From: Solimonas sp. SE-A11
Lineage (GTDB): Bacteria; Pseudomonadota; Gammaproteobacteria; Nevskiales; Nevskiaceae
Length of the DNA: 64,000 bases
Reading direction: 5' to 3'
Assembly (NCBI RefSeq): GCF_030345715.1
Contig: NZ_JAUASX010000003.1
Location: 62,001 to 126,000, forward strand
Shown: in pieces, positions 18,334 through 52,964 of the stretch
How positions within the stretch are numbered: the first letter of the stretch is position 1
Layout of the letters: each line of letters starts with the position of its first letter
Translations under genes and position numbers: made by a program
Notes under the pieces: model-generated
What the model saw: the letters and a program-made list of their open reading frames with translations, nothing else
The model's database searches: none
What the model was told of the DNA's origin: nothing

Positions 18334-18375
18334 CGGAGTCTCCATTGGGCCGGGTGCTCCCGGATGGACTCCACT

Positions 18376-18394
18376 TTATTGGGCGATCCAATAA
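18376..18394. promoter_or_regulatory. candidate LysR-type operator
   Basis: Perfect dyad TTATTGG-N5-CCAATAA in the divergent SDR/LysR spacer. It contains the T-N11-A feature of LysR-family sites. Likely binding site of the adjacent regulator. Confidence 0.6.
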
Positions 18395-18452
18395 GGATAA
18401 ATTTCCTCGAAATGATTTCTGTGTTCGTTTAAAGCGAACAATGGGACTGATG

Positions 18453-27879: not shown

Positions 27880-27919
27880 GCGGCCGGCGGCGCGGCCGCC
27901 CATAACGAGGAGATTGCGG

Positions 27920-34282: not shown

Positions 34283-34335
34283 GAAACCAACGTGAAGCCG
34301 GGATGAGACTCGGGATTCAACGCGGACAGGAAGTC

Positions 34336-35157
34336 ATGCAGACGACGCATACACAGGACGTGGCGCGGCACTACACGCGACGTCACGAGCAGCGGGGCGA
34401 GCTGTTCGGCAAGCAGCCCTTTGCCAATTACGGCTACTGGACGCGCCCGGACATGAGCATGGAGCAGGCGGCCGAGGCGCTGACGCTGCTGGTGGCGTCC
34501 GCCGCGGGGCTTTCTGCGCAAGACCGGGTGCTCGATGTCGGCTGCGGCTACGGTGCCGGCGCGGTGGCCTGCCTGCGGCATTTCCAGCCCGCGTCCATCG
34601 TCGGTATCGACGTCACCGCGCTGCGCCTCGAATACGGTCGGGGCTATGTGCGGGAGCAGGGCTTCGCCGAGCGCATCGACCTGCGCCTGGGCGACGCCAC
34701 GCGGATGGAATTCGAGGATGCCAGCTTCGACAAGCTGCTGTCGGTGGAGTGCGCCTTCCATTTCGATACCCGCGCGGATTTCCTGCGCGAGGCGGCGCGC
34801 GTGCTGCGCCCGGGCGGCACGCTCGCGCTGACCGACCTGATCCCGCGGCGCGGGGTGGATCCCTCGGCCTATCTGCAGGGGGCGACGGCGGTGGGCACCG
34901 GGGTGTGCCTCGACAATCGTGACAACGCCTACGACGCCGACGTCTACGCCGCGCATTTGCGGGTGGCGGGCTTCACGGCCCTGCGCATCGAATCGATCGT
35001 GGACTGGACGCGCATTCCATTCATCGACGCCTTCGAGCGTGCCGGGCTGCAGTTGCAGGGCGAGCGCGCGGCCGAGGTGAGCCGGTCGGTGGCGCGCCTG
35101 CGCGGCCTGGTGGCCGCAGGCGAGGACTACGTGCTGGTGGTGGCGCGCAAGGCCTGA
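34336..35157 (+). CDS. class I SAM-dependent methyltransferase
   Basis: 273-aa methyltransferase. The SAM-binding motif I is VLDVGCGYGAGAVACL, followed by the acidic IVGIDVTALRLEYGR and DLRLGDATRMEFEDASFDKLLSVECAFHF. It looks like the small-molecule/lipid branch (UbiE, sterol and mycolic-type cyclopropane-like enzymes). Start 34336 follows AGGA; an earlier ATG at 34303 is possible. It converges on the free ACP gene at the end of the fatty-acid-synthase operon, so it may tailor that product; that link is positional only. Confidence 0.83.
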   Translation: MQTTHTQDVARHYTRRHEQRGELFGKQPFANYGYWTRPDMSMEQAAEALTLLVASAAGLSAQDRVLDVGCGYGAGAVACLRHFQPASIVGIDVTALRLEYGRGYVREQGFAERIDLRLGDATRMEFEDASFDKLLSVECAFHFDTRADFLREAARVLRPGGTLALTDLIPRRGVDPSAYLQGATAVGTGVCLDNRDNAYDADVYAAHLRVAGFTALRIESIVDWTRIPFIDAFERAGLQLQGERAAEVSRSVARLRGLVAAGEDYVLVVARKA

Positions 35158-35181
35158 CTGCGCCGCCGGCATGGCTGGTGC

Positions 35182-35466
35182 TCAGCCCGGAATGTTCGCG
35201 GCCAGGAAGTCGGCGATCTGGCCGATGGACAGGTCGTCGACGTAGCGGCCGTCCTTCATCAGCAGCTTCTCGAATGGCAGCTTGCCGCCGACGATGTCTT
35301 CCTGGATCGCCACGATCAGCTGGATGATGTCGATGGATTCGAAGCTGAGATCGCCCAGCAGCTTGCTGCTACGGTCCATTTCACCGTCGAATTCGTTGTC
35401 CCAGTCCTGGGTGAAATCCTTCAGCAGCGTGATCAGCTTGGTGACGTAGACGTCGGAGTTGCTCAT
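35182..35466 (-). CDS. stand-alone acyl carrier protein
   Basis: 94-aa acyl carrier protein, last gene of the synthase operon. The phosphopantetheine site is LLGDLSFESIDIIQLIVAIQ with Ser44; the usual G-x-D-S-L is changed to S-F-E-S-I. Acidic helices flank it, and the length fits a type II ACP. It is distinct in sequence from the five tandem ACPs in the large synthase (GIDSIKRVEIL), so it probably serves a different step, such as priming, release or transfer to the hexapeptide acyltransferase encoded just upstream. Confidence 0.87.
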   Translation of the reverse strand: MSNSDVYVTKLITLLKDFTQDWDNEFDGEMDRSSKLLGDLSFESIDIIQLIVAIQEDIVGGKLPFEKLLMKDGRYVDDLSIGQIADFLAANIPG

Positions 35467-35518
35467 GGCTCGTGGCGTATTGTCGTAAGGATGAATGACC
35501 CGTATTCCCGGCGGGGAA

Positions 35519-36319
35519 TCAGGGCCAGGTGTACAGGGGCTGCGGCAGGCGCTCGGGGCGGAAGCGGACCTTGTAGCGAACCTTGTGCAGGCGCCAGGCC
35601 TCGGGTTGCAGCAGATCCAGCTTGCCGTCCGCGAGGCGTTGCTCCAGGCCGTCCAGCGAGGCTTCGATGCGGCTGTAGTCCAGCTCGTTCTTGTGTGGTG
35701 CCAGATTGTAGCGCCACCACTGCAGCTTCAGCAGGCGCTCGACGGTCTTCTCGTCGAAGCGCAGGCGGGCGACCTTGGCCGGCTGGCCGACCACGATGGA
35801 GTAGGGCGGCACGTCGCGCGTGACCAGGGCATGCGCCGCCACCACGGCACCGTCGCCGATCTTCACGCCGCGCTTGATGAAGGCGCCGGCACCGATCCAG
35901 ACGTCGTGGCCGATCTCGGTGAACTCGCGGTTGACATCGCGCTTGGACACCGTGGTCAGGTCCTTGAAGTCCTGGAACACGGCGAAGGGCGGAAAGTCCT
36001 CCGGCGAGCAGAAGGCGAAGGTGTGCGTCGACAGGCCGTCGGTCGGGTGCTCGTAGGGCCCGACGATGGCGGCCTCCGCGATGGAGCAGTAACGCCCCAC
36101 GCGGGTATCGTACAGGCTGCTGGTGTACATGCCGTTGACGTAGGTGAACGCGCCGAAGCTGCAGTTCTTGATCCGCCGCGGCGCGAACAGGTAGCTCGGC
36201 CGCTCGAAGTCGATCACCCCATAGAGGCCAGTGGCCCCCATGGCTTCCATGCCGAGATCGAGCAACTGCTCCGACGTCAGGGTTCCTTCGTCGGCGGGCT
36301 TGGCGGCTTCAGCACTCAC
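35519..36319 (-). CDS. left-handed beta-helix (hexapeptide) O-acyltransferase
   Basis: 266-aa acyltransferase of the CatB/XAT-like hexapeptide-repeat family. The repeats run from about residue 50 to 190 (RVGRYCSIAEAAIVGPYEHP; EIGHDVWIGAGAFIKRGVKIGDGAVVAAHALV) and contain the catalytic-type His in PYEHPTDGLSTHTF. A C-terminal helical part follows (RLLKLQWWRYNLAPHKNELDY). The start is set at GTG 36319, which overlaps the upstream stop by 4 bp (GTGA), indicating coupling. Adjacent to the free ACP, it may transfer an acyl group from ACP or CoA to a hydroxyl acceptor. Confidence 0.83.
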   Translation of the reverse strand: MSAEAAKPADEGTLTSEQLLDLGMEAMGATGLYGVIDFERPSYLFAPRRIKNCSFGAFTYVNGMYTSSLYDTRVGRYCSIAEAAIVGPYEHPTDGLSTHTFAFCSPEDFPPFAVFQDFKDLTTVSKRDVNREFTEIGHDVWIGAGAFIKRGVKIGDGAVVAAHALVTRDVPPYSIVVGQPAKVARLRFDEKTVERLLKLQWWRYNLAPHKNELDYSRIEASLDGLEQRLADGKLDLLQPEAWRLHKVRYKVRFRPERLPQPLYTWP

Positions 36320-37917
36320 TCCATGTAGCCCAGCATCTGCAGCTGTTCGATGATCTGCTGCTTCTCGCCCTGGTCCATCTCTTCCTTGAGTTCCTTCTTG
36401 GCGGGCGGCTTGGTGCGGGCGCCCTTCTTGATCGGGTGCGCAGCGAGCCATTCGGCCTCGAAGAAAGTCTCGGCCGGCTTGCCCTCGAAGTCCGCCGGGA
36501 TCGGCAGGCCCAGGCTGTGCAGCAGGGTCGGGGCCACGTCCACGATCAGGCGGCGGTCGACCATGCCGCTGGCGGCGATGCCGGGGCCGCAGGCCATGAA
36601 GATGCCATCCGGGTGATGCGTGCCGATCGCGGCGGGGCGGTGGGCCACCACCGGCTCGAAGTTGCGGATGGAGACGAAGCCGTGGTCGCTCAGCACCAGG
36701 GTCAGGTCTGGCGCGCGCTTCATGTGCTGGCCGGCGAACCAGTCCTCGCGCTTGAGCACGTCGATCACCACCGGCTTGCCGGTCTTGGGATCGGTGATGG
36801 TGTAGAGGTCGGCGATCAGCTTCTCGCGGAAGGACTCGTAGTCCTCGGGCCTGATGCCGGCATCGCCCGGCTTCTCGGCCACGCGGATGACGATGCCGTT
36901 GGACGACGGCGTCTGGCAGTAGGCCAGGGTCTTGGACCAGTCGAGGTTGGCGAAGTCGGAGGCATCGCGGCGCACGGCCTGCTCGCTACCGTCGTTCTTA
37001 CCCCAGGTGAGATAGCCCTTCTCGCCCAGGAAGGTGTTGATGCGCAGCACGAAGTTGCTGGCGGTGAAGCCGTGGTCGGAGGCGAAGAACACCTGCGTGT
37101 CCGGGCCGGCCATGGTCACCAGCTTCTCGATGTAGCCGTCGAGGTTGTTGAAGTACTCGAGGCAGACCTCGCGCATCTCCTTGTCATGGCCCTGCGGGTC
37201 CTTGGGCAGCAGGTCCTTGTCCAGCCAGGGCCAGGCCTGGTGCTGGATCTTGTCGGTGCCGTCGAACATCACCGCCATCAGGTCCGGCTTGTCGCTGCCG
37301 AGGATGTACTCGGCAACCTTGAACCACTGTTCCTCGCGCGGCAGGTGGTAGCGCACCCACTTGGCGGTCTCGGTGGCCGAGAGCGATTCCATGGCCTGCT
37401 TTTCCTTGTCGAAGTCCCAGGCCAGTTCCTTGGGATCGAAGCCCGGCACGTCGGTCTTGATGCGCTCGAACAGCTCGCGCGGATGCGTGTTGCGGCGCAG
37501 GTGCTTGGCGGGGATGAAGCCCGGCACGATCGAGCCGTTGATGCCCTCCGGTGCCGGCGCGGTCAGCGGGAAGTTCAGCGCGGCGATCTTCTTGTCCTTG
37601 CGCGAGGCGATCGACCAGATCGTCTCGGCGTCGACGTCACGCGCGTCGTACAGCGTCCAGTAGACCTCGGCGCCATGGTCTTCGGCGCGGATGAACTCGA
37701 ACACGCCGTGCTCACCCGGGCCCTTGCCGGTCATGATGCTGGTCCAGGCCGGCGGGGTCAGCGGGTTGGGCGTGGAGCGCAGCTTGGCGCGCACGCCCTT
37801 CTTCATCAGCGAGGCCAGGAAGGGCATGGTCACGCCTTCTCCCGGCAGGTCGCGGGTCATTTCATCCAGCACGGTGAAGGTGCAGCCATCGAGGCCAATG
37901 AACAGGGTCGTCGTCAT
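36316..37917 (-). CDS. alkaline phosphatase superfamily hydrolase/phosphodiesterase
   Basis: 533-aa protein of the type I phosphodiesterase/nucleotide pyrophosphatase branch. The metal site is complete: LFIGLDGCTF (first Asp), TPPAWTSIMTGKGPGEHG (Thr/Ser nucleophile region), MFDGTDKIQHQAWPW, FASDHGF (Asp-His) and GTHHPDG (last His). No signal peptide or membrane helix, so cytosolic. It follows the two synthases in the same operon and is coupled to the acyltransferase gene. It could hydrolyse or transfer a phospho or sulfo ester on the lipid product or release it from a carrier; this is inference. Confidence 0.83.
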   Translation of the reverse strand: MTTTLFIGLDGCTFTVLDEMTRDLPGEGVTMPFLASLMKKGVRAKLRSTPNPLTPPAWTSIMTGKGPGEHGVFEFIRAEDHGAEVYWTLYDARDVDAETIWSIASRKDKKIAALNFPLTAPAPEGINGSIVPGFIPAKHLRRNTHPRELFERIKTDVPGFDPKELAWDFDKEKQAMESLSATETAKWVRYHLPREEQWFKVAEYILGSDKPDLMAVMFDGTDKIQHQAWPWLDKDLLPKDPQGHDKEMREVCLEYFNNLDGYIEKLVTMAGPDTQVFFASDHGFTASNFVLRINTFLGEKGYLTWGKNDGSEQAVRRDASDFANLDWSKTLAYCQTPSSNGIVIRVAEKPGDAGIRPEDYESFREKLIADLYTITDPKTGKPVVIDVLKREDWFAGQHMKRAPDLTLVLSDHGFVSIRNFEPVVAHRPAAIGTHHPDGIFMACGPGIAASGMVDRRLIVDVAPTLLHSLGLPIPADFEGKPAETFFEAEWLAAHPIKKGARTKPPAKKELKEEMDQGEKQQIIEQLQMLGYME

Positions 37918-37954
37918 GATCGTGTCTTCGGAGAAGGAAGTTCTGTAGGAATGT

Positions 37955-40900
37955 TCAGGCTGCTGGCCATGTTGCTGCCCGTGGCGCTGCGGTGACGCAG
38001 AGCGCCAGCATGGCCTGACCGGCTTCGGCATGCAGGGCGATATCGTAATCCTGACCGTTGTAGCGCACGCGCGCCATCTGCGGACCACCCAGGCGGTTGT
38101 CCAGGTGCGCGGCGACCACCTGCCAGTCCTGTGGACGGCCGTTCAGTCCGGTGCCGGCTGCCTTGGCGGCAGCCTCCTTGGCGCACCACAGGGCCAGCAC
38201 GATGCGGCTGCGCTCGGCCCCGTCGACGCCCTGGAACCAGACCTGCTCGGCGGCGGAGAAACCGCCGACGGCCACGTCCTCGGTGCGCAGGTTGTCGGCG
38301 CGCTGGTAGTCCAGGCCCAGTGCCACGCTCGGGTCGCTGGCCACGGCATAGGCCCAGCGCTGACTGTGCGCGATGGACAGTGCCGGTGCGGCCATCTGCG
38401 GCAGGGCGGGGCAGCGCACCAGCGGCCGGCCGTTGGCGTCGGCGTCGATCTCGACGTCGGCCGGCGACAGCTCGGTGCCGCTGCGCAGGCGGTACCAGTC
38501 GCGCGCGGCGTCCTTGGCGGCCAGGCGGCCCATCAGCCATTCCTCGCGGCGCGGGCCCTGCTGTGGCAGGGCGTTGAAGATCGCGCGCTCGCGGCGGCTT
38601 AGCACCATGTGGGCCAGCATGCGCTTCCAGATCGTGCCGCCCTCGTCGAGCGTGCCTTCCGGCAGCGGCTCGATGCGGCGCAGGCACAGCTCGGCCGGCA
38701 ACTGGCCGGCCATGGGCGTTTCCGACAGGCGCGCATGGCCCGGGTCGAGGCGGAAGCCGAAGAAGCGCTCGTCGCCGCTGAACACGCGGTCGTCCCAGCC
38801 CTCGGCGCGCAGCAGCAGGCGGCCGTCGGCACCGATCACGTCCCAGCGCGCTTCCAGCACCGTGGGGCTGGGCAGCGTGATGGCGCCATGGCAGGCGTAG
38901 CGCAGGCCTGGGGCTGGCGGCGGGGCGTAGAGCGACAGGCGCCGCACGCGGAAGGGGAAGCAGTTGGGCACGCCCGGGTTGCGCTCGCGCAGCCAGAAGC
39001 CGGCAAGCTGGCCCGCGGCGTCGAGCATGGCGGCGTCGAGCTGGAAGCGCGGCGTGGTGGTGCCGGCGAAGTAGTCGTGCACCGGGATGGTGGTCAGCTC
39101 GGCGACGATGCCCTGCTCGCCGTAGCTGTCCAGGCGCGTCACGCCCTGCAGGCGCGGGCCGTGGAACATGCCGTGCTGGTAGAGCTGGCCCGGCAGGTGG
39201 ATGTGCGGCGGCTTGAGCCCTGCGGACGGCAGCGGCTGCGGTGCCGGCGCGGCGGGGTAGGCGGGCGCCAGCAGCACCGTGCCTTCGAACACCAGCAGGC
39301 CTCCGGGCGTGCTGCCCTCGCCGAGCAGGAACACGCGACAGGCGATGGCGTCGGGGTTGCCCGGTGCCGCCTCGGCCAGCACCCGCAACGTGATGGCGCC
39401 GTCGTCGAGCGACAGCCAGCGGCTGCCGCGGGCGTTCTCGATGGCCGACACCACGCGGTCGCTGCGACCGCTGAGGCGCATGGCGGCCTCGGCGATCAGC
39501 TCCATGCTGTAGGTGAAGGGGATCACCGGCAGGCCGGTCAGCGCCGGGTCGGCGGCGCTGGGCGCGTCGCCCAGCGTGTGGTCACGCAGGAACAGGTCCT
39601 GCTCGATGGTGTAGCGGCGTTCCGATGTCAGCTTGCCGGCCGAGAGCTGCACCGGGCCCAGCAGCGGGAAGGCCGGATCGAAGCCAGCCGGCATCGCTAC
39701 CGCCGAGGCAGTGACCGGCGCCGGCATCGCGGGCGTGGCACTGCTGGCCAGTCCCAGTACGCGGGCCTGGCTGTCGAGGAAGTCCTGCATCAGCGAGAAG
39801 TGCGCGTTGAGCGCCGTCATGCGCGGATCGCTGGATACGGCGGCTGCGGGCATGGCGGCCGGCATCGGCGCTGCCACGGCAGCGGGCGCCGCGGCGGGTG
39901 CCGGGGTGCCGGCCGGCATCGCGGGCGCGGCGGCCTGCGGCAGCGGCTTCTTCCACTCCTCCGGCAGTTGCCAGACCGGGTTCAGCAGCTTCATGCGTGG
40001 CGGTAGCTTGGCAGCCGGCTTGGGCTCGCCCATCAGGTCGAGGTCGGCGATCCTGCGGTGGGCGAACAGGCGCGAGGGGTCGAAGCTCACGCCAGCGGCG
40101 AACAGCTGTGCCAGGGTCTGGTGCAGATGCGCCATGCCCGGCTTGCGACGGCTGTTGCTGGACACGGCCAGCACGTCGTCCTTGCCGCGCAGGGTATCGC
40201 CGACGAAGGAGGTCAGGTTTCCGCTGGGGCCCACTTCGAGGAATACACGGTAGCCGTCCTCGTAAAGCCGCTGGATGGTCTCGGTGAAGCGTACCGGGTG
40301 TTCCCACTGGCGCGCGGCCAGCTCGCGGATGCCGTCGGCATCGGTGGGGAACGGCGCGCAGGTCGAGGCACTGTAGACCGTGGTCGTGCCGGGGCCGAGT
40401 TCCAGGGTCTTGAAGTAGCCGCGGAAGGCATCGGCCAGCGGCTTGAACAGCGCAGTGTGGTAGGCGCGGCCGAAGGGCAGCTCCTGGCAGATCGCGCCTT
40501 CGGCACTGAGTTGCTCGTGCAGCTTGTGCGCGGCCTCGGGCGGCCCGAACAGCACCAGCTGGTTCGGGCAGTTGTCCATCGCCAGGTGCATCTCGCCCAG
40601 GTCCGACAGCAGCGCGCTGCGTAGTGTTGGCGTCAGTCCGCCGATGGTCAGCAGCGAGCCCTCGGCAATCTTCCCGGCTGCATCCAGCTCGTTGAAGATG
40701 CGGTTGAACACCTGCACGGCGTCGGCCGTCTCGGCGCGGTGGCGCACGCGATTCATGCCGGCGGCAGTCAGCACGGTGTTCTCGCCGGTGCTGTGGCCGA
40801 GCATGGCGTCGGGCGCAAAGCCGAGATCCTGCAACAGCGCATGCAGTCCGAGGCTGGCGGCGAACACGCCTTCCGCGGCCACGTCCATTTCGTACAGGCG

Positions 40901-42802
40901 GTCTTCCAGCAGCTTGCGGGCTTCGTCGCTGATGACCGTCGGCGGTGGCAGCAGGGCCGGCACGCGCGAGGGACTGCCGCGCCGGTTGGCGTTCTCCTCG
41001 ATGAAGTCGAACCAGTCTCGTACCTGCGGGAACTGCACGCAAAGGTCGGCCAGCATGTTCGGATACTGCGAGCCCTCGCCCGGGAACACCAGGCAGAGCT
41101 TGCCGGCGACGTCACCGGCGCCGTAGTTGATGCCGGCGCGGGTCTTGAACGGCTTGACGTCGGGCCGCTCGATCTTCTCGATGGCCTGGTGCAGCTTGCG
41201 TTCCAGCTCGGAGGCATCGGCACAGACGATGGCCAGGCGGAACGGACCGCGGCCATAGGTGCTGCAGGCCTTGGCGACCTCTGCGAGCGTGGCGGTCTTC
41301 AGGTGCGCCAGCGCTGCATGGATACGCTGCAGCAGCTCCTCGCGGGACTCGGCGGCCAGCGCCACCAGCTCGGAATCGCTGGGGGTGTGCAGTACCTGCA
41401 CCTGCACGGGGCGGTGCTCGCGGTACTCCTCGAGGATGACGTGCGAGTTGATGCCGCCGAAGCCGAAGGCGTTGACACCGGCGCGGCGCGGGTGCGCCTT
41501 GCCGTGCAGCCAGGGGCGGGTTTCGGTGTTGAGGTAGAACGGCGTCTTGTCCAGGCCCAGGTCCGGGTCCGGCTCGGTGCACAGCATCGGCGGGAGCACC
41601 TTGTGGTGCAGCGCCAGTGCGGTCTTGATCAGCGCGGCGCCACCGGAGGCGGGCATGCAGTGGCCGATCATCGACTTGACCGCGGTGATGGCGATCTGCT
41701 GGTCGCGGCCGCGCGAGCCGAAGATGCTGGTCAGCGACTCGATCTCGGTCTTGTCGCCAACCGCGGTGCCGGTGCCGTGCGCCTCGATCAGGTCGATCGT
41801 CATCGGGTCGATGCCGCTGCTCTGGTAGGCGCGGCGCATGGCCAGGATCTCGCCTTCCAGGCGCGGTGCCAGCAGGCCCTTGGCGCGGCCGTCGCTGGCG
41901 GTGCCGATGCCGCGGATCACCGCATAGATCTTGTCGCCGTCACGCTCGGCGTCGGCGCGGCGCTTGAGCACCAGCATGCCGATGCCCTCGCCCAGCAGGG
42001 TGCCGTCCGAGTCCTTCTGGAAGGGGCGGATGCGGTCGCGCGACAGCGCGCCGATGCGGCAGAACTGGATGAACAGCTGTGGCGGCGTGTGCACCTGTGC
42101 GCCACCGGTGATGATCAGGTCGCAGCGCCCGCTGTTGAGCTCCGCGGCGGCCTGTTCCACTGCGATCAGCGTCGAGGCGCAGGCGGCATCGACGATGTAG
42201 CTCGGCCCCATCAGGTTGAGGCGGTTGGCGATCAGGCCGGCGATGACGTTGGGCGTCAGCACGCCGATGTGCTCGGCGTTGAACGGCGGCAACTGCGCCT
42301 TCAGCGCGTTCTGCAGCTTCAGGATGTCGCCTTCGTTGAAGTCGGGACGCAGGCCGCGCACCAGGTCCATGGCCTGGTCCAGGAAGCAGTTGCGCGACAT
42401 CAGGCCCGCCATGCCGCGGTTGCCGTAGGTGCCGCGCGCGATGATCACGCCGGCACGTTCACGGTCGAAGGGCTTGTGCAGGTAGCCGGCATCGTCCAGC
42501 GCCTCGTGAGCCACCTTCAGCGCCAGCATGTGGTCCGGGTCGCTGCCCGCGGCCACGTTCGGCATCACGCCGTAGTCCTGCGGGTTGACGCGTGCGTGCT
42601 CGCCCAGGAAGCCGCCGCGCGTGGTGTAGATGCGATCCTCGCGCGTGCTGTTGGGCTCGAAGTAGGGGCCGACCCATTCCGGGTCGCCCTCGCTGGTGGC
42701 GTCGACCTTGTCGAGGATGTTCTGCCAGTACTGCCGGGCGTTGGACGCGCCCGGGTAGATGCCTGCCAGGCCGACGATCGCGATGTCGAGGGGTTGGGTC
42801 AT
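37955..42802 (-). CDS. type I fatty acid/polyketide synthase: KS-AT-DH-PPTase
   Basis: 1615-aa second subunit. KS (about 5-455) with active-site Cys208 in VDAACASTL, EAHGTGTAVGD and GHCMPASGG, so it is a condensing KS and not an obvious chain-length factor. AT (about 565-880) with FPGEGSQYP and Ser671 in GHSTGE. A Pro/Ala-rich linker near 940-1040 carries no ACP. A hot-dog dehydratase follows (about 1040-1370; His1075 in LRDHTLG, second half with YQHGMFHGPRLQG). The C-terminus (about 1420-1600) is a Sfp-type phosphopantetheinyl transferase (GLDYQ near 1497, WCAKEAAAKAAG near 1541). It must act on ACPs in trans, and its PPTase probably activates them. Starts 7 bases after the 3105-aa synthase. 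Confidence 0.9.
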   Translation of the reverse strand: MTQPLDIAIVGLAGIYPGASNARQYWQNILDKVDATSEGDPEWVGPYFEPNSTREDRIYTTRGGFLGEHARVNPQDYGVMPNVAAGSDPDHMLALKVAHEALDDAGYLHKPFDRERAGVIIARGTYGNRGMAGLMSRNCFLDQAMDLVRGLRPDFNEGDILKLQNALKAQLPPFNAEHIGVLTPNVIAGLIANRLNLMGPSYIVDAACASTLIAVEQAAAELNSGRCDLIITGGAQVHTPPQLFIQFCRIGALSRDRIRPFQKDSDGTLLGEGIGMLVLKRRADAERDGDKIYAVIRGIGTASDGRAKGLLAPRLEGEILAMRRAYQSSGIDPMTIDLIEAHGTGTAVGDKTEIESLTSIFGSRGRDQQIAITAVKSMIGHCMPASGGAALIKTALALHHKVLPPMLCTEPDPDLGLDKTPFYLNTETRPWLHGKAHPRRAGVNAFGFGGINSHVILEEYREHRPVQVQVLHTPSDSELVALAAESREELLQRIHAALAHLKTATLAEVAKACSTYGRGPFRLAIVCADASELERKLHQAIEKIERPDVKPFKTRAGINYGAGDVAGKLCLVFPGEGSQYPNMLADLCVQFPQVRDWFDFIEENANRRGSPSRVPALLPPPTVISDEARKLLEDRLYEMDVAAEGVFAASLGLHALLQDLGFAPDAMLGHSTGENTVLTAAGMNRVRHRAETADAVQVFNRIFNELDAAGKIAEGSLLTIGGLTPTLRSALLSDLGEMHLAMDNCPNQLVLFGPPEAAHKLHEQLSAEGAICQELPFGRAYHTALFKPLADAFRGYFKTLELGPGTTTVYSASTCAPFPTDADGIRELAARQWEHPVRFTETIQRLYEDGYRVFLEVGPSGNLTSFVGDTLRGKDDVLAVSSNSRRKPGMAHLHQTLAQLFAAGVSFDPSRLFAHRRIADLDLMGEPKPAAKLPPRMKLLNPVWQLPEEWKKPLPQAAAPAMPAGTPAPAAAPAAVAAPMPAAMPAAAVSSDPRMTALNAHFSLMQDFLDSQARVLGLASSATPAMPAPVTASAVAMPAGFDPAFPLLGPVQLSAGKLTSERRYTIEQDLFLRDHTLGDAPSAADPALTGLPVIPFTYSMELIAEAAMRLSGRSDRVVSAIENARGSRWLSLDDGAITLRVLAEAAPGNPDAIACRVFLLGEGSTPGGLLVFEGTVLLAPAYPAAPAPQPLPSAGLKPPHIHLPGQLYQHGMFHGPRLQGVTRLDSYGEQGIVAELTTIPVHDYFAGTTTPRFQLDAAMLDAAGQLAGFWLRERNPGVPNCFPFRVRRLSLYAPPPAPGLRYACHGAITLPSPTVLEARWDVIGADGRLLLRAEGWDDRVFSGDERFFGFRLDPGHARLSETPMAGQLPAELCLRRIEPLPEGTLDEGGTIWKRMLAHMVLSRRERAIFNALPQQGPRREEWLMGRLAAKDAARDWYRLRSGTELSPADVEIDADANGRPLVRCPALPQMAAPALSIAHSQRWAYAVASDPSVALGLDYQRADNLRTEDVAVGGFSAAEQVWFQGVDGAERSRIVLALWCAKEAAAKAAGTGLNGRPQDWQVVAAHLDNRLGGPQMARVRYNGQDYDIALHAEAGQAMLALCVTAAPRAATWPAA

Positions 42803-42809
42803 CGTGAAA

Positions 42810-45800: not shown

Positions 45801-48800
45801 GCGCTTGATCGAGTCGATGCCCAGGTCCGCTTCGAGGTCGGCCTGCATGCCGAGCATCTCGGTGGGATAGCCGGTACGCTCGGCGACGATCGAGGTCAGC
45901 AGCGCCGTGGTGTCGATGGCCGGCGCGGCCGCGACCGGCGCGGCGACGGCGACCGTCACCGTGGCGGCCGGGACCGCCGCTGGGACCAGGCGGCGCAGTT
46001 CGGCGAGGATCGCCGACAGCGTCTTGGCCTTGGTGTAGCGCTCCATCGAACCCTGCATCTGCGCGCCGGCATCGGCGGGCAGCGACTGCTGGAGGGCGCC
46101 GAGGATCTCCACCCGCTTGATCGAGTCGATGCCGAGATCGGCTTCGAGATCGGCGTCCATCCCGAGCATCTCGGTTGGGTAGCCGGTGCGTTCGGCGACG
46201 ATCGAGGTCAGCAAGGCGGTGTAGTCGACCGCGGCGGCCGGTGCGGCGACGGCGACGGTGACCGTGGCGGCCGGCGCCGCGACGGCGGCGGACGGCGCCA
46301 GGCGCTGCAGTTCGGCGAGGATCGCCGACAGCGTCTTGGCCTTGGTGTAGCGCTCCATGGAGCCCTGCATCTGCGCGCCGGTATCGGCGGGCAGGGACTG
46401 CTGCAGGGCGCCGAGGATTTCCACGCGCTTGATCGAGTCGATGCCGAGGTCGGCCTCGAGGTCCGCATCCATCCCGAGCATCTCGGTCGGGTAGCCGGTG
46501 CGCTCGGCGACGATCGAGGTCAGCAGGGCGGTGTAGTCGACCGCGGCGACCGGTGCGGACACCATCTGCACCGACACCTGTGCCCCCTGCGTCGGCAGCA
46601 GCGGCTGCACCTGGGCGAGGATGGCGTTGAGGGTCTTGGCCTTGGTGAAGCGTTCCATCACCGCCTGCATCTGGGCGCCGGTCTGGCCGGGCAGCGCCTT
46701 CTGCAGGGCGCCGAGGATCTCCACGCGCTTGATCGAGTCGATGCCGAGGTCGGCTTCGAGGTCGGCGTCCATCCCGAGCATGTCGGTGGGGTAGCCGGTG
46801 CGTTCGGCGACGATCGCCAGCAGCGCTTCTCGGGCGTCGAAGGACGGCACGGCGGCCGGCGTGGCCACCGGGGCCGCGGCCACCGGCAGCGCGCGCGGCA
46901 CCGGCATGGCCGTCGGCTGTGCCGGGGCGACCGGCGCGGCAGCGACTGGCATCGCCGACATCTGGGGCAACGTCAGCGGCATCGGGGCCGGCATGGCGGG
47001 CATCGAGGGCATCGCGCCGGGCGCGCCGCCACCGAGGAACTGTTGCACCACGCGCTCCTGCAGGCTCAGGAACTGGCGCATGGTCTGCTGGTAGGCCACC
47101 AGCGCTTCGTTGCCGAGTGCCGGCGCGGCGGGCATCGACGGCATCGCCATCGGTGCGCCGGCGACCGGCTGATGCACCACCACAGGCGCCGGGCGCGGCA
47201 GGGATGCGGCGATCTTGTCGAGCTGTGCCTGGCGGGCGGCGGCCGAACTGGCCTGCGTCAGCGCCGGCTGGCTGCCGGTGCGCATCAGCGGGTCGTCGAT
47301 CGGGCGGGCGCAGCCGCCGCTGAGCAGCCACATGTGCTTGGGCACCACGCGCGGCTTGGACAGGTCCGCGAGCTGGGTGTTGTCGAGCAAGGCGAGGTCA
47401 CGGTTGGCGAACAGCGCCGAGGGCTGCCAGGCCACGCCGGCGGCGAACAGCTCGGCCAGGCCCAGCAGCAGGCCGCGCAGGCCGCCGCCGTTGCCGTCCA
47501 GCGCGATCGCTTGGGCGTCCTTGCCGGCCAGCGTCTGCTTGGCCATGTTGGAGCAGATGCCCTTGGGGCCCAGCTCCAGGAACACGCGGCTGCCGGCGGC
47601 ATGCATCGCCTCGACCTCGGCGACGAACTCGACGCTGCTGAGCATGTGCTCGTCGAGCAGAGCCTGCATCGCAGTCGGCTTGGCCGGATAGGGCTTGGCG
47701 GTCTGGTTGGAGAAGACGGTGAGCTGCGGCGCGGCGAACTTGGTGGCACGGATCGCGGCGGACAGCGCAGCCTTGGCACTGGCGACCAGCGGCGTGTGGA
47801 AGGCACCGGAGACCGGCAGCAGCGTGGCGCGCAGCCCGGCGGCGCCGAGCTTCTGCGCGGCCGCCTCGACCTGGGCACGGGGGCCGGAGATCACGCACTG
47901 CTCGGGCGCGTTGTGGTTGGCGATGGTGACGCCGGCGTATTCGGTGATCTGCGCCGCGACCATCTCGCGCCGGCCTTGCACGGCGGCCATGCCGCCGGGC
48001 TCGGAGGTGCTCGAGGCTTCGGCCATGGCCCGGCCGCGCACGGCGGACAAGTGCAGGAACTCGGCCTCGGTGATGGTGCCGGCGGCCAGCAGCGCGGTGT
48101 ATTCGCCGTAGGAGTGGCCGGCGGCCGCGGTGGCTTCCAGGCCCAGGCGCTTGGCCAGGCGCAGGTAGCCCATGGACAGCGTGCCGATGGCCGGCTGCGC
48201 CACGCGCGTGTCGGTCAGGGCGCGGGTCTGCGCGGTCTCGGTGGCGTCGTCGAAGGCGGCCGGCGGCAGGATGCGGCTGGACAGTGCCTGCGGCAGCGCC
48301 GCCTGCAGTTCGCGATCGGCGAACTCCATGGCTTCGCGCAGTTCGTCGACGAACAGCGCGACCTCGCGGCCCATGTTGAGGTGCTGCGCACCCTGGCCCG
48401 GGAACAGGAAGGCCAGCGATGGTGCGGTGGCGGGCAGCGCGGCGTTGTAGCGGATCGACGGCGTCAGCGGCTTGCCTTCGCGCAGATGCGCCAGGGCGGC
48501 GTCGATGTCCTTCGCCAGATTGGAGAGATCGGTGGCCACGATGGCCAGCGCGGTGCCGCCGGAGCGGGACTCCGCCTGCTTGGCCAGCGTGAAGGCCAAC
48601 TCCGACAGGCCGACGCGGCTGCCGGCTTCGAGCCGGGGCCGCAGCGTTTCCAGTTCCTTGACCAGCGCGGCCTTGTCGGCGGCTCGGAACAGGCATAGCT
48701 CCACCGGCCAGCGCTGCGCGCCGGCGATGCCGCCGTGCGGGCTGTACTCCTCGAGCACGGCGTGGAAGTTGGTGCCACCGAAGCCGAAGGCCGAGGCCGC

Positions 48801-51800
48801 GGCGCGGCGCGGATGCTCGGCATGGGCGACCCAGGGACGCGGGTCCTTGAGCAGGTAGGCGGCGGAATTCGGATCGGCCAGCGTGTCGATCGGCTTCTCG
48901 ACGCCGACATGGGCCGGCAGCACGCGGTGGTGCAGGGCCAGGGCGACCTTGACCATGCCCGCGACACCGGCGGCGGCCTTGGTGTGGCCCAGCAGGGTCT
49001 TGACCGAGCCCAGCGCCACGGAGCGCGGTGCGGCTTCCTCGGCGGCCAGGGCACGGGTGATGGTGGCGGCCTCGGCGCGGTCGCCCACGGCGGTGCCGGT
49101 GCCATGCGCCTCGATCAGCCCCAGCGTGGCCGGCGAGAAGCCGGCCTTGGCGTAGGCGCGGTGCAGCGCGCGCACCTGGCCTTCGCTGCGCGGGGCGGTC
49201 AGGCCCAGGGCCTTGCCGTCAGACGAGCCGGCGGTGGACTTGATGACGGCATAGATGCGGTCGCCGTCGCGCTCGGCATCGGCCAGGCGCTTGAGCACGG
49301 TGATGACCACGCCCTCGGAGATGGCGATGCCGTCGGCGTTCTCGTCGAAGGTCTTGGGCTTGCCGCTGGGCGACAGCGCCTGGGTCTTGGCGAAGGTGGT
49401 GAAGCCGTAGGCGGACTGCGTGGTGTCGAAGCCGCCGGCCAGCACCAGCGAACTGCGGCCGGACTCCAGTTCGTTCACGGCCATGCTGATCGCGGCCAGC
49501 GATGAGGCGCAGGCGGCATCCACGGTGAGGTTCACGCCGCCGAAGTCCATGCGGTTGGCGACGCGGCCCGCGGCCACGTTGGGCAGCACACCGGCGAAGG
49601 ACTCTTCCGTCCACTCCGGCAGGCGCTCCCAGACGTCGTCAGTGAGGTTCTCGACGAAGCGCGGCAGTTCGGCGCGCACGCCGTACTGCAGGCCCAATTC
49701 GCCCGCGCCGCCGCTGCTGCCGAGGATCACCGATGTGCTTTCGCGGTCGAAGCCGCCCTTGGAATAGCCGGCGTCGTCCAGCGCGCGGCTGGCGGCCTCC
49801 AGCGTCAGCAGCTGCATCGGGTCGATCGATTTCATCGAGCGCGGCGGGATGCCGAAGCGCGTCGGATCGAAGTGGATCTCCTCGAGGAAGCCGCCCCAGC
49901 GCGAGTAGATCTTGTCGCGGGTCTTGCGGTTCTCGTCGAAGAACAGCTTCCAGTCCCAACGCGATTCCGGTGCCTCGCGGATCACGCTGACCTTGTGCAA
50001 TACGTTGTTCCAGTATTCGTTGGCGTCGTTGGCCTTGGGCAGCACCACGCCGATGCCGACGATGGCGATGTCGGAGGGCTTCTCCACCGGCTTGGCGACG
50101 GAAGGCACGGGAGCGGCCTTCTCCAGCAGCACGTGCGAACCCTGGCAGACGTCCTGGTGCAGGTCGGCGATGGAGACGGCGGCATCGCGCAGCGTCGCCA
50201 CCTGGCCGATCATGTACATGCCGTCGGCCAGCTGCTTGTCCGGCGCCACGCTGACGACCTTGCCCGACTCGTCGCGGTTGACGCCCTTGGAGGCGACACG
50301 CAGGCGGCCTAGGTTGAGGTCCTCGAGGATGTCGCGGATTTCCTCCGCACTCTTGCCCTCGCGGATCAGTTCGCGGCGCTGGTTGAAGAAGTCGTCGGCG
50401 AACTGCGTCGCCGCGCAGCGCGTGGAGTGGCCGGGGCCGGTCTCCAGGTTGCGCGTGCGTTCGCAGGCCACGGCCTGTTCCTGGAAGCCCTCGACGATGG
50501 CGCCCGAGCGCACGATCTCCTGGCTGAACAGGTAGGCCGTGCCCATCAGGGCGCCCACCTTCATGCCACGCGCCGCGAGCGGCGAGGTCATCGCCGCCAC
50601 CATGGCGCCGGAGCGGGCATCGTGGATGCCGCCGGCGAACAGGACGTGCACGTCCTTCTCCTCGCCCGGCTTCACGTGCTCCAGCAGCACGTCGATCATC
50701 TCTTCCCACAGCACGAAGCTGGAGAGGGGGCCGATGTGGCCGCCGCACTCGCGGCCCTCGAACACGAAGCGACGCGCGCCTTGCTCGAGGTACATCTTCA
50801 GCAGCGCCGGGGCCGGCGCGTGGATATAGGTCTTGATGCCGCGCTTCTCGAACTCCGCGGCCTGGTCCGGACGGCCACCCGCGATCAGAGCGTAGGGCGG
50901 CTTGCAGTTCCAGATCTCGGCGCACTGCTCCTCGCGCAGCGCATGCGGGATGAAGCCCAGCATGCCTACGCCCCAGGGCAGGTTGCCGGCGAGGTCGCGG
51001 GTCTTTTCCAGCATCTCCTTGACCTGCGGGCCGCGCATCAGTGCCAGCGCCAGGAAGGGCAGGGCGCCGCCCTTGGCGACGTCCACGGCGAACTCGGGAC
51101 TGTCGGAGACGCGGGTCATCGGGCCCTGCGCCAGCGGGTAGCGCGTGCCGTGCGACTCGGCCAGCGGGCCGCCGGCATCCAGGAAGCGCAGCTGCGCGGC
51201 CTGCTCGATGTGCTTGAGGCTGGAACGGCGGATGGCCTGCACCAGCTTGGCGACCGTGCGGAAACGGTCGCGAAAGGTCGCGGCCAGGCCGATACCCTGG
51301 CCCAGCGGGATCAGCTGGCTGCCGTCGCCGGCCCAGCCGATCTGGCCGGTGATGCGCTCACGCCACTGTTCGAGCGTCAGCAGGGCGCCTTCGACCTGGC
51401 GATTGTCCTCCTCGGCCTGCTTGAGTGCGGCCGAACCCGGGCGGGCATAGACGCGGCAGGACTGGTCCACCAGTTCGCCGAACAGCTTGGTCTCGGCGCC
51501 GTTGAGGCGGGCGAACTCGGCCTGCTGCTGCGGCGGCAGCGGCGATTCGGCCAGCAGAAGTAACTGGTCGTCCAGTACGACGCCAGCGGCACCGGCCGCG
51601 CGGCAGGCGGCGGCGGAGTGCACGCCGATGCCGCCCTGCACGAACAGCGGCAGCTTGCTGCGCTCGCCCAGCTTCTGCAGCAGGATGTAGCTGGTGTACT
51701 CGCCGACCCAGCCGCCCGATTCATGTCCACGGACCACCAGGCCCTGGAAGCGGTTGCCCAGCTCCGGCAATGCCGAGGCGTCGGAAATCTCCGCCAGCAC

Positions 51801-52127
51801 ACGGTCCTGCTTGCGTGCGCCGATGGCCTTGGCCAGGTGCACGAGGCCGGCGGCGGGGCCGCCCAGGACCAGCGTCAGCGCGCGGTCGCCGGCACGTGCC
51901 AGCAGGCTTTTGCCCAGCTCCGCCTGTGCTGCGGTGAGCCGCAGGCCGACACGGCCGCGGCCGCCTTCCTGCAGCAGGCGCTGGAACTGCGCGGTCGCGG
52001 CCGCGGTGTCGGCGCAGAATTCGAGGTTGAGCAGGCCGGCGCCGCCGGCGCGGGCCATCGCGGTGGCCAGTGCCGGGGTCGGCAGGCCGGCCGGGCTCAG
52101 GCCCAGGATTTCAAAGGAGCTGGTCAT
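42810..52127 (-). CDS. giant iterative synthase: NMO-NMO-KS-AT-ACPx5-KR-DH
   Basis: 3105-aa PfaA-like synthase. Residues 1-260: a nitronate-monooxygenase-type TIM barrel in which the usual His is Trp140 (ESGGWVG). About 330-660: a second such barrel with His464 in ECGGHIG, like PfaD enoyl reductases. KS about 682-1128 with Cys873 (DAACASS), EAHGTGT and GHTKAAAG. AT about 1235-1535 with Ser1339 (GHSYGE). Five ACPs with phosphopantetheine Ser near 1798, 1898, 2002, 2106 and 2208. KR about 2500-2760 (TGGARGIT, QSDYAAANE). Hot-dog DH about 2810-3090 (LLDHRLDSKGVLPATG, FLFHGPRFQ). The set suffices for full reductive chain extension apart from PPTase, which the next gene supplies. The fused ER and two-protein layout differ from marine pfaABCDE systems. 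Confidence 0.92.
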   Translation of the reverse strand: MTSSFEILGLSPAGLPTPALATAMARAGGAGLLNLEFCADTAAATAQFQRLLQEGGRGRVGLRLTAAQAELGKSLLARAGDRALTLVLGGPAAGLVHLAKAIGARKQDRVLAEISDASALPELGNRFQGLVVRGHESGGWVGEYTSYILLQKLGERSKLPLFVQGGIGVHSAAACRAAGAAGVVLDDQLLLLAESPLPPQQQAEFARLNGAETKLFGELVDQSCRVYARPGSAALKQAEEDNRQVEGALLTLEQWRERITGQIGWAGDGSQLIPLGQGIGLAATFRDRFRTVAKLVQAIRRSSLKHIEQAAQLRFLDAGGPLAESHGTRYPLAQGPMTRVSDSPEFAVDVAKGGALPFLALALMRGPQVKEMLEKTRDLAGNLPWGVGMLGFIPHALREEQCAEIWNCKPPYALIAGGRPDQAAEFEKRGIKTYIHAPAPALLKMYLEQGARRFVFEGRECGGHIGPLSSFVLWEEMIDVLLEHVKPGEEKDVHVLFAGGIHDARSGAMVAAMTSPLAARGMKVGALMGTAYLFSQEIVRSGAIVEGFQEQAVACERTRNLETGPGHSTRCAATQFADDFFNQRRELIREGKSAEEIRDILEDLNLGRLRVASKGVNRDESGKVVSVAPDKQLADGMYMIGQVATLRDAAVSIADLHQDVCQGSHVLLEKAAPVPSVAKPVEKPSDIAIVGIGVVLPKANDANEYWNNVLHKVSVIREAPESRWDWKLFFDENRKTRDKIYSRWGGFLEEIHFDPTRFGIPPRSMKSIDPMQLLTLEAASRALDDAGYSKGGFDRESTSVILGSSGGAGELGLQYGVRAELPRFVENLTDDVWERLPEWTEESFAGVLPNVAAGRVANRMDFGGVNLTVDAACASSLAAISMAVNELESGRSSLVLAGGFDTTQSAYGFTTFAKTQALSPSGKPKTFDENADGIAISEGVVITVLKRLADAERDGDRIYAVIKSTAGSSDGKALGLTAPRSEGQVRALHRAYAKAGFSPATLGLIEAHGTGTAVGDRAEAATITRALAAEEAAPRSVALGSVKTLLGHTKAAAGVAGMVKVALALHHRVLPAHVGVEKPIDTLADPNSAAYLLKDPRPWVAHAEHPRRAAASAFGFGGTNFHAVLEEYSPHGGIAGAQRWPVELCLFRAADKAALVKELETLRPRLEAGSRVGLSELAFTLAKQAESRSGGTALAIVATDLSNLAKDIDAALAHLREGKPLTPSIRYNAALPATAPSLAFLFPGQGAQHLNMGREVALFVDELREAMEFADRELQAALPQALSSRILPPAAFDDATETAQTRALTDTRVAQPAIGTLSMGYLRLAKRLGLEATAAAGHSYGEYTALLAAGTITEAEFLHLSAVRGRAMAEASSTSEPGGMAAVQGRREMVAAQITEYAGVTIANHNAPEQCVISGPRAQVEAAAQKLGAAGLRATLLPVSGAFHTPLVASAKAALSAAIRATKFAAPQLTVFSNQTAKPYPAKPTAMQALLDEHMLSSVEFVAEVEAMHAAGSRVFLELGPKGICSNMAKQTLAGKDAQAIALDGNGGGLRGLLLGLAELFAAGVAWQPSALFANRDLALLDNTQLADLSKPRVVPKHMWLLSGGCARPIDDPLMRTGSQPALTQASSAAARQAQLDKIAASLPRPAPVVVHQPVAGAPMAMPSMPAAPALGNEALVAYQQTMRQFLSLQERVVQQFLGGGAPGAMPSMPAMPAPMPLTLPQMSAMPVAAAPVAPAQPTAMPVPRALPVAAAPVATPAAVPSFDAREALLAIVAERTGYPTDMLGMDADLEADLGIDSIKRVEILGALQKALPGQTGAQMQAVMERFTKAKTLNAILAQVQPLLPTQGAQVSVQMVSAPVAAVDYTALLTSIVAERTGYPTEMLGMDADLEADLGIDSIKRVEILGALQQSLPADTGAQMQGSMERYTKAKTLSAILAELQRLAPSAAVAAPAATVTVAVAAPAAAVDYTALLTSIVAERTGYPTEMLGMDADLEADLGIDSIKRVEILGALQQSLPADAGAQMQGSMERYTKAKTLSAILAELRRLVPAAVPAATVTVAVAAPVAAAPAIDTTALLTSIVAERTGYPTEMLGMQADLEADLGIDSIKRVEILGAFQKALPAELGAQMQSAMERFTKAKTLAAIVAEMQRLAPAAAPAPVAVNVSVAAPAARIDFAALLTGIVAERTGYPPEMLGMDADLEADLGIDSIKRVEILGAFQKALPAELGAQMQASMERYTKAKTLSAILQALDSLQAPAAAPAAVTVSVAAAPAAKAAAPAAPAAPTPRYVIKSRPAPLPAASSKLGGLAIVLGDSMPVAKLLSAELKSRGMTPVHVSDNDPAKLRAAIAAARAKHGPAKALLQINGLDRRKIGNLADWKARYSLDALSLYHGLKALESDLERARIVGASRFGGTFGRDSVGKGAASGGAANGVFNCLRYEYPQSLMRAVDFDGQSDEDIARLLVDELASDCREPEVGYVGTVRHGSVTSSQPLTASPFPASVVPSGDWVVLVTGGARGITAEIVEELVRPGMRLVLLGRTAAPAPESAETSGHADAAQLKAALLKARMARGEKPKPVEIDREVSRILVDREIRANLAKLTAAGAKVEYLACDVRDEAAFGGLIDSLYAKHGNIDAVLHGAGVIEDKLFVDKTAESFERVLGTKLDAAFLLSQRLKPQNLKLLAFFTSVAGRYGNRGQSDYAAANETLNRLAWQLHREWPQTRVIAVNWGPWDAGMASEGVRRAFKERGIEAIPVPSGRRFFLDEIAYGPRNDVEIVAGAGPWYKPEQEPAEAPAAAPAAQPSGLPLMQVAPRMGPGGNMMMDHQFCVTSDPYLLDHRLDSKGVLPATGALEWMAEFVTAAWPGWQVVEMRDHRVLNSVMLDPEVNGGKRSVQIRARASSHSDLNGQTITVEIIDPAKKLPLYRATAVLAQKMPEPPVMNVEALAGAKPFAATDAYAHFLFHGPRFQLASDIPAVAEGGLDARVRPTLPTEWLPEAQGSWLFDPALCDVAPQMAIVWSRLNRNMTALPSAFASVRRYGSEPLPKTLRLALRLLPAPHESAMVYDALYLDDAGRVRLEMRHCEATMSAALNRLGGQAATIKNQPSDRA
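45375..46840 (-). repeat. five tandem ACP-coding repeats inside the giant synthase
   Basis: DNA repeats of about 300-312 bases, each coding an ACP with AERTGYP...MLGM.ADLEADLGIDSIKRVEIL. The aligned ATCGAGTCGATGCC-type segments lie at 45500, 45806, 46118, 46430 and 46730. Repeats two and three (counting from the N-terminus) are nearly identical in protein sequence, pointing to a recent duplication or gene conversion. Pro/Ala/Val linkers separate them. Confidence 0.88.
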
Positions 52128-52148
52128 GGGAATACCCTGCCTCGCGAA

Positions 52149-52964
52149 TTAACGCTTCTTGCCTTCCAGAAAAGGAATTTCCATGACCTTTTCGTGGACG
52201 ATGGGACCGTGGCCGAAGAACCCGCCTTCGCCGAAGCATTCGCCGTGGTCCGCGGTGATGATGAAGTGGGTCCCGACCGGGGCCTTTTCAATCAGGCCCT
52301 CCAGCACCGTGTCCACGTACTCCACCGTCTTGATCTGCTGCTTGTGCAGCGACTTCATTTGCTCGTCGTCGAAGAACTTGTCTTCGGAGCCCTCGCCCAG
52401 GTTGTCATCCATGTGCTTGAACACCCCGTGCACGCCGGAGATGTGCGGCAGGTCCTTGCCGTCCAGCATGTACGGATAATGGGTCTCGCCCAGGTTCAGG
52501 AAGTAGAACTGCGGCTCGTCATCGTAGAAATCGATCTCGCGCACCATGCCGGCGAAATCATTGTGATTCGTCATCAGCTTGTATTCGTCGAAGTGCTTGT
52601 TCATGTGCGAGGTCGGGTTCAGCACCGGCATCGACACCTTGGCGTTGGTGCGGTAGCCGTGCTGCTTCAGCACATTGGGCAGCGACAGCTGCGGCACGAA
52701 GGACTTGAACGACAGGCCGTCCACGCCCAGCCGGTCCACCCACTTGGAGAACTCCTTCTTGTAGACCTCCGAGGCGAACACCCCCTGCGGGTTGTCGTGC
52801 GGGGTCATGCCCATCAGGTAGGTGTAATGGGAGGGCGAGGTCCAGGACGCGTAGGAGTAGCGCTTCTGGCCTTCTCCGAAGTAATCCATGTTCTTGGTGC
52901 GAGCCTGCTTGTAGCTGTCGAAACGGCAGCTATCCATGACAATGAAGACGAGGTTGTTGCTCAT
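52149..52964 (-). CDS. sulfatase-like hydrolase
   Basis: 271-aa single-domain member of the sulfatase/phosphoethanolamine-transferase fold. Start LVFIVMDSCRFDS gives the first metal Asp; TSPSHYTYLMG supplies a Thr/Ser nucleophile region rather than the C-x-P-S-R formylglycine motif of sulfatases; HFIITADHGECFGEGGFFGHG is the classic C-terminal metal motif. Shorter than most sulfatases and without signal peptide or membrane helices. First gene of the synthase operon, 21 bases before the 3105-aa synthase. It may act as a phospho-transferase or hydrolase on a lipid intermediate. Confidence 0.8.
   Translation of the reverse strand: MSNNLVFIVMDSCRFDSYKQARTKNMDYFGEGQKRYSYASWTSPSHYTYLMGMTPHDNPQGVFASEVYKKEFSKWVDRLGVDGLSFKSFVPQLSLPNVLKQHGYRTNAKVSMPVLNPTSHMNKHFDEYKLMTNHNDFAGMVREIDFYDDEPQFYFLNLGETHYPYMLDGKDLPHISGVHGVFKHMDDNLGEGSEDKFFDDEQMKSLHKQQIKTVEYVDTVLEGLIEKAPVGTHFIITADHGECFGEGGFFGHGPIVHEKVMEIPFLEGKKR

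Follow-up and report, generated by a model that had tools for sequence, protein, structure and literature searches.

What does Solimonas sp. SE-A11, a member of the Nevskiaceae, make with an operon built around two very large lipid synthases, and how many of the surrounding genes belong to it? The operon lies in a 64,000-nucleotide stretch of contig NZ_JAUASX010000003.1 (positions 62,001 to 126,000, forward strand); we call this whole stretch the window and give all positions in its coordinates. We find that the operon is the core of a locus for biosynthesis and export that is conserved across the family. It belongs to the NMO-fused secondary-lipid kind and differs from the ars locus for phenolic lipids in Azotobacter vinelandii. 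We propose, with a probability of roughly 0.55, that the locus serves a single specialised long-chain lipid, covering its synthesis, its release by a thioesterase (TE), its modification and its export. Our best guess for the product is a long reduced chain that is released by a discrete hydrolase and, in Nevskiaceae, acetylated. The six genes of the operon are:

52149..52964, minus strand: Hyd, a 271-aa alkaline-phosphatase-superfamily hydrolase (PF00884, 38 bits; PF01663, 24 bits)
42810..52127, minus strand: synthase A, 3105 aa, NMO-NMO-ketosynthase (KS)-acyltransferase (AT)-five acyl carrier proteins (ACPs)-ketoreductase (KR)-dehydratase (DH)
37955..42802, minus strand: synthase B, 1615 aa, KS-AT-DH-phosphopantetheinyl transferase (PPTase), by Pfam
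36316..37917, minus strand: PDE, a 533-aa phosphodiesterase of the nucleotide pyrophosphatase/phosphodiesterase (NPP) type (PF01663, 145 bits)
35519..36319, minus strand: Hex, a hexapeptide (XAT-like) acyltransferase (PF00132)
35182..35466, minus strand: free ACP, 94 aa, with a Ser at the usual attachment position (by eye)

The strand, order and sizes of these genes agree with a preliminary description of this DNA, and the intergenic distances from Hyd to the ACP gene are 21, 7, 37, -4 and 52 bases. Homologues of all six occur together in 14 of 14 other Nevskiaceae regions, which were picked for holding Hyd. The gene order is the same except in G004, where Hex is downstream on the opposite strand; G005 and G013 have an extra Hex-like open reading frame (ORF), and synthase A is split in G048. 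Hyd is directly upstream of synthase A in all 24 Nevskiaceae loci that were picked through the synthase, among 80 loci kept, from genomes that partly overlap with the Hyd-picked set. Since all six genes recur in every region and Hyd precedes synthase A at every locus, the association is beyond chance, and the six genes form a real conserved unit. Hyd is present in 46 of 58 Nevskiaceae genomes (that of SE-A11 counted), and only two weak matches were found among 42 genomes from other families.

The domain layouts proposed earlier for the two synthases were confirmed by Pfam and NCBIfam matches together with sequence motifs. Synthase A has five LGIDSIKRV ACP motifs and scores 1446 bits against the PfaA model TIGR02813 (cut-off 1010.1), which bears out its assignment to the Pfa/secondary-lipid synthase type. 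Pfam at 0.001 did not find an NMO match in synthase A. The NCBIfam FabK model matches it in two stretches (best, 327-668), its NMO-NMO region aligns with 13 relatives, and PF03060 matches an ArsA-like homologue in two stretches; from these observations we infer that synthase A has two NMO/FabK-like barrels. The GHSxGE motif is kept in both AT domains, and the DAACAS[S/T] cysteine is kept in both KS domains, so neither synthase includes a chain-length factor, as had been claimed. Passages of PMC3098273 describe the chain-length factor as a mark of Pfa types A and B that is absent from some secondary lipid types.

The nearest characterised relative that we found is indeed ars, as had been suspected. 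The NMO-NMO region occurs in ORFs of 2508-2521 aa in four Pseudomonadaceae genomes. In one of these (G676), the ArsA-like protein (2503 aa from its ATG) reads NMO (two stretches)-KS-AT-ACP-KR by Pfam and is followed by two Chal_sti_synt_C proteins and then by a 636-aa DH-PPTase protein; the other three genomes have the same layout by BLAST. This is the arsABCD plan, and from its gene order the host is probably an Azotobacter, with gene roles taken from passages of PMC4824345; in passages of PMC3098273, the type I fatty acid synthase of ars is Type P of Shulse and Allen, with a single ACP. The fused reductase and fused PPTase, which had been considered unusual, are thus features of a known kind, since both are present in the proteins resembling ArsA and ArsD; the front-fused reductase pair is also found in relatives scattered across many phyla. 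Solimonas and ars share the front-fused NMO-NMO-KS-AT-ACP-KR chain, with 41% identity to the G676 protein over NMO-KS-AT-ACP, and a DH-PPTase at a chain end (in ars, on the separate 636-aa chain). By contrast, ars alone has one ACP, no DH found on its A chain, no KS-AT on its PPTase chain, and two type III polyketide synthase (PKS) genes, whereas Solimonas alone has five ACPs, a DH on synthase A, a second KS-AT on synthase B, no type III PKS, and its own PDE, ACP, TE and export genes. In a 78-row FastTree phylogeny, a branch with a local support value of 100 separates the four ars-like rows from the 25 Nevskiaceae rows. The row nearest to synthase A of the window is that of S. fluminis. A metagenome-assembled genome (MAG) labelled Lysobacteraceae (L079) has a synthase within the Nevskiaceae clade, and its label or bin is probably wrong.

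The six-gene boundary drawn in the preliminary description proved too narrow. Co-conserved genes reach down to about 19.5 kb, giving a locus of about 19.5-53.0 kb that is larger than the six genes. The further genes in and next to it are:

34264..35157, plus strand: S-adenosylmethionine-dependent methyltransferase, CMAS-like (PF08241, 76 bits; PF02353, 54 bits), convergent with the operon
33419..34282, minus strand: TE, an alpha/beta hydrolase (PF00561, 103 bits) with Ser and a displaced acid, D at +24
31107..33401, minus strand: family III CoA-transferase, 764 aa (PF02515, 501 bits, two stretches)
30150..31058, minus strand: PHB-depolymerase-like esterase (PF10503, 34 bits)
24631..25614, plus strand: ST-like, a homologue of the sulfotransferases (STs) of olefin synthase (OLS) and CurM (PF13469, 44 bits)
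23247..24722, plus strand: P491, a probable beta-propeller protein (no Pfam match; model pLDDT 86.5)
20902..23250, plus strand: HlyD-type membrane-fusion protein (PF16576, 62 bits; PF13437, 60 bits)
19508..20890, plus strand: TolC-type outer-membrane efflux protein (OEP; PF02321, 162 bits)
18345..19361, plus strand: LysR regulator (PF03466, PF00126), upstream of the export genes

Among PDB structures the P491 model best matches propeller-type folds (TM-scores of 0.26-0.46 when scaled by query length), and P491 is fused to TE in two Pseudomonas relatives. The HlyD-type protein has an N-terminal membrane part (by eye) and homologues in several regions from outside the family. The CMAS-like methyltransferase, with homologues in the G001, G003, G013 and G041 regions, may or may not be part of the locus; a candidate minus-strand gene at 34279-35172 was rejected as its shadow on the opposite strand. 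A TetR regulator, possibly of the operon, is encoded upstream of it (53638-54288) and also found in G001 and G003, and a PA-domain protein (27857-29437), a possible aminopeptidase with homologues in the G001 and G006 regions, is encoded beside the locus.

The genes for release and finishing differ from those of ars and belong to a little-studied set found in several bacterial phyla. We compared gene order over 33 regions, seven from Nevskiaceae and 26 from elsewhere. Among 14 regions from outside the family that were picked for holding PDE, ACP and TE are each present in 13, P491 in 12, ST in seven, the esterase in seven (one partial), Hyd in six, the CoA-transferase in one and Hex in none. 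Synthase A, synthase B, ACP, PDE, TE and P491 recur together within one region in genomes of Proteobacteria, Cyanobacteria, Planctomycetota, Chloroflexota and Actinomycetota. Within Nevskiaceae, the ST-like gene goes with Hyd: a strong ST-like match is found in 20/25 Hyd-positive and 0/12 Hyd-negative genomes (Fisher 3e-6, relatedness ignored; one further Hyd-positive genome with weak matches only was scored absent). A whole-genome search for PDE in 27 genomes gave matches in 22 at E 0.001; the match has at least 37% identity in 18 of the 27, and in 14 of these it is on the contig of the synthase, within the compared regions. The expectation that the tailoring genes would co-occur with the synthases therefore held for most of them in this neighbourhood comparison; Hex was seen in the Nevskiaceae regions only. 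The NMO-NMO synthase kind is scattered rather than common: the region was found in 8/369 genomes of the class (that of SE-A11 counted) and in 7/119 Pseudomonadaceae genomes. Some loci (L169-L178) have phylum-specific tailoring genes, namely a glycosyltransferase and a methyltransferase in Caldilineae, TauD and condensation-like genes in Synechococcus, and a class-V aminotransferase in Chroococcus. The synthase of a MAG labelled Tatlockia (Legionellaceae; L101) is beside that of Chroococcus in the tree, and the contig is probably a misbinned cyanobacterial one.

What might the two phosphatase-like enzymes and their neighbours do? The fourth gene encodes a predicted NPP-type phosphodiesterase. 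NPP-type enzymes have a Thr nucleophile and six metal ligands, and in PDE the nucleophile and all six ligands (D10, T54, D219, H226, D281, H282 and H434) are invariant in 14 of 14 homologues. The fold agrees: the PDE model (pLDDT 87) has as its nearest solved folds the Xac NPP 7mw8 and the phosphonoacetate hydrolase 1ei6, with the full metal and nucleophile set in common, although identity to the listed NPP and phosphonoacetate hydrolase chains is 13-17%, and phmmer at 0.001 found no match to PDE in the PDB. In Hyd, which had been described as sulfatase-like, D11, T42, D239, H240 and H252 are invariant in 10 of 10 homologues. Formylglycine sulfatases have the motif C/S-x-P-x-R, in which the Cys or Ser is converted to formylglycine. 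The corresponding stretch of Hyd reads T42-x-P-S-H, unchanged in 10 of 10 homologues, and the invariant Thr at the nucleophile position rules out a formylglycine sulfatase and speaks against the idea that the first gene removes a sulfo group. The sole NCBIfam match of Hyd, to NF038075 of the STM4013/SEN3800 family, reaches 61 bits where the cut-off is 250, so that Hyd is not a member by this model, and a sequence search of the PDB (E up to 0.01) gave no match. Because their metal and nucleophile sets are complete, both PDE and Hyd look active.

The free ACP has no Pfam match at 0.001 and scores 20 bits against NF003757 (cut-off 65). Its gene is directly before PDE in Westiellopsis, Pseudomonas, Micromonospora, Haliea, Phycisphaerae, Caldilineae and others, though not in Rubrivivax, Bosea or Competibacteraceae UBA2792. 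This adjacency in several phyla suggests, as a guess, that PDE acts on a carrier-bound intermediate. Hex scores 132 bits against TIGR03308, below the cut-off of 202, and is found in 7/7 Nevskiaceae regions and 0/26 others, several of which stop soon after the synthases; hence Hex looks like a lineage-specific addition. Hex is the gene on which the earlier suggestion of an acylated product chiefly depends.

We propose that synthases A and B work together as a type I fatty acid synthase that is iterative and belongs to the NMO-fused, ars-like group. The PPTase of synthase B would load the five ACPs of synthase A, the two KS-AT pairs would extend the chain with malonyl units, and KR, both DHs and the fused NMO reductase would strip the oxygen to leave a largely reduced chain. 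Where ars uses a type III PKS, the free ACP would here handle the chain and TE release it. The phosphoester on which PDE and Hyd may act could belong to the intermediate, to its carrier or to a phospholipid that donates the head group. In Nevskiaceae, Hex would acylate, and probably acetylate, the product, which the HlyD/TolC pair would export. In this scheme we infer the chain length, the order of steps, the substrates of the two phosphoesterases and the exported compound.

Gene and domain content, active-site residues and co-inheritance are direct observations, and several points nonetheless weigh against the scheme built on them. All matches are homology-based and related genomes are not independent; moreover, the two sets of 14 regions were selected for one of the very genes whose company is being counted, Hyd within the family and PDE outside it. 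Four 38-kb regions were located by their synthase and not by PDE; among them, G392 has PDE, whereas G060, G219 and G097 have none. The CoA-transferase is rare outside Nevskiaceae, where two regions have it, those of G392 and Haliea. The TE, CoA-transferase and esterase genes are probably not on one transcript with the six genes, since 899 bases and a convergent gene lie between ACP and this group. Lastly, nothing that we found fixes the chain length or the head group.

One alternative is a phosphorylated lipid, in which the chain would have a phosphodiester head group on which PDE and Hyd act as phosphotransferase and hydrolase. NPP-like and LtaS/EptA-like enzymes have such roles elsewhere, and the complete NPP active site of PDE, the presence of the phospholipid-active ENPP6 and ENPP7 among its fold neighbours, and the Thr at the nucleophile position of Hyd are consistent with this idea. 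However, neither a kinase, a CDP-transferase nor a glycerophosphate acyltransferase is among the locus genes typed (not every ORF was typed), and neither PDE nor Hyd has a membrane anchor or export signal that can be seen by eye. We consider a phosphorylated lipid unlikely.

A second alternative to the reduced, acetylated chain comes from the ST homologue. In OLS, according to passages of PMC3903477, beta-sulfonation is followed by decarboxylation by the TE. The same release could occur in trans here, with ST sulfonating the beta-hydroxyl of the finished acyl-ACP and TE carrying out hydrolysis, decarboxylation and sulfate loss to give a long terminal alkene; the Solimonas ST-like protein would then be a remnant or use another donor. 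Indeed, the only PDB matches of the window's ST-like protein at E up to 1 are 4gox (OLS ST, 1e-9) and 4gbm (CurM ST, 9e-9), and the best match of the Pseudomonas ST is the CurM ST (1.3e-20). When 145 cyanobacterial genomes were searched with an ST profile, 10 of them gave free STs with E-values no worse than 1e-71. The next matches (1e-23 to 1e-38) were ST regions in 12 long ORFs of 1213-3020 aa, which we take to be OLS. All 10 free-ST genomes have an NMO-NMO synthase, compared to 0/30 comparison genomes, 10 with an OLS-like ST and 20 without (Fisher 1e-9, relatedness ignored); in four of the 10, ST and synthase are far apart on one contig. The Pseudomonas alcaligenes cluster also has CysNC-like (GTPase and APS kinase) and CysD-like genes near ST (L152:5673-8473), a possible dedicated supply of the sulfate donor 3'-phosphoadenosine-5'-phosphosulfate (PAPS).

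The layout of the TE also bears on this reading. CurM TE has a Ser-His pair and an acid displaced to after beta-6. An acid 24 residues past the Ser is present in 20/20 TEs of this system and in 9/9 readable OLS TEs (9 of the 12 OLS-like loci reached the TE and were used), and the usual acid position is Ser or Thr in 20/20 and 8/8 readable cases, respectively. As a control, we sampled 30 of 42 matching loci in the Solimonas genome, one of which is the TE itself; the displaced-acid layout is also found in two of the 10 other alpha/beta hydrolases with a readable second acid position. The displaced acid is therefore not diagnostic; it is support for decarboxylation and falls short of proof. No CurM entry is among the best 60 of 170 PDB matches for TE.

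Against olefin-type release, the PRSxxS/T PAPS loop and the [D/E]KSP region are gone in 20/20 Nevskiaceae ST copies shown, as they are in G041. A sulfated product in Solimonas is rejected on this ground, and the earlier suggestion that a sulfo group is added is not supported. ST copies without the motifs are also found in G060, G064 and G070, genomes from the taxonomic order to which Nevskiaceae belongs, whereas STs of Pseudomonas, Westiellopsis, Tectomicrobia, Rubrivivax and others keep them. ST was not seen in seven of the 14 PDE-selected regions. The OLS and CurM STs are the nearest solved relatives of the ST-like protein, and the TE has the triad layout of OLS TEs, but ST and TE are free proteins here; an FAAL is not among the locus genes typed (again, not every ORF). 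We therefore regard release by an olefin-type mechanism as a doubtful proposition. It is more doubtful still that a free-standing OLS/CurM-type ST and a discrete hydrolase off-load the chain in several phyla as a terminal alkene or beta-sulfated acid, a mode of release that is not known for secondary-lipid synthases, while Nevskiaceae keep the hydrolase, have ST as a PAPS-less pseudoenzyme and use the ACP-coupled NPP phosphodiesterase instead, perhaps to free an acyl-phosphopantetheine from its carrier. Two side observations concern ST itself. In four genomes of one Nevskiaceae genus, taken as Hydrocarboniphaga (G010, G021, G029 and G033), the operon is present and a strong ST-like gene is absent from all four when searched, with two weak matches in G029. 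Five cyanobacterial genomes (L185-L188, L205-L209) have divergent ST pairs about 1.5 kb apart; in G489, G509, G523 and G548 the PAPS motifs survive in one member of the pair and are lost from the other, and in G570 both members have them.

A polyunsaturated fatty acid synthase of Pfa type A/B is distinctly improbable: synthase A passes the PfaA model and shares the KS-AT-tandem ACP-KR core of the omega-3 synthases (pfaABCDE), but the second KS has its cysteine and is thus no chain-length factor, each chain has one DH rather than a tandem pair, and reductase and PPTase are fused, with no separate pfaD or pfaE among the genes typed. An alkylresorcinol or alkylpyrone of the ars type, as in Azotobacter cysts, is so very unlikely that we reject it, barring a non-homologous cyclising enzyme, despite the common domain plan and identity to the ArsA-like protein, because the ars synthases fall in a distant, separately supported clade and the whole genome has no match to type III PKS (PF02797), which extends the earlier remark that none is adjacent.

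We found no published product for this synthase branch in the open-licence PMC literature, and titles and abstract openings of 12 listed papers (of 56) on Nevskia, Solimonas, hglE-KS and polyketide synthases name no relevant product. The long reduced chain that we favour would come from a branch of type I fatty acid synthases far from ars, one with a carrier, a phosphodiesterase, a hydrolase and a propeller protein of its own, which extends from Nevskiaceae to cyanobacteria and planctomycetes. Solimonas, Pseudomonas alcaligenes and Westiellopsis are cultured hosts in which a lipid class may be found, and the ST homologues provide a testable link to the sulfotransferases of olefin synthases.

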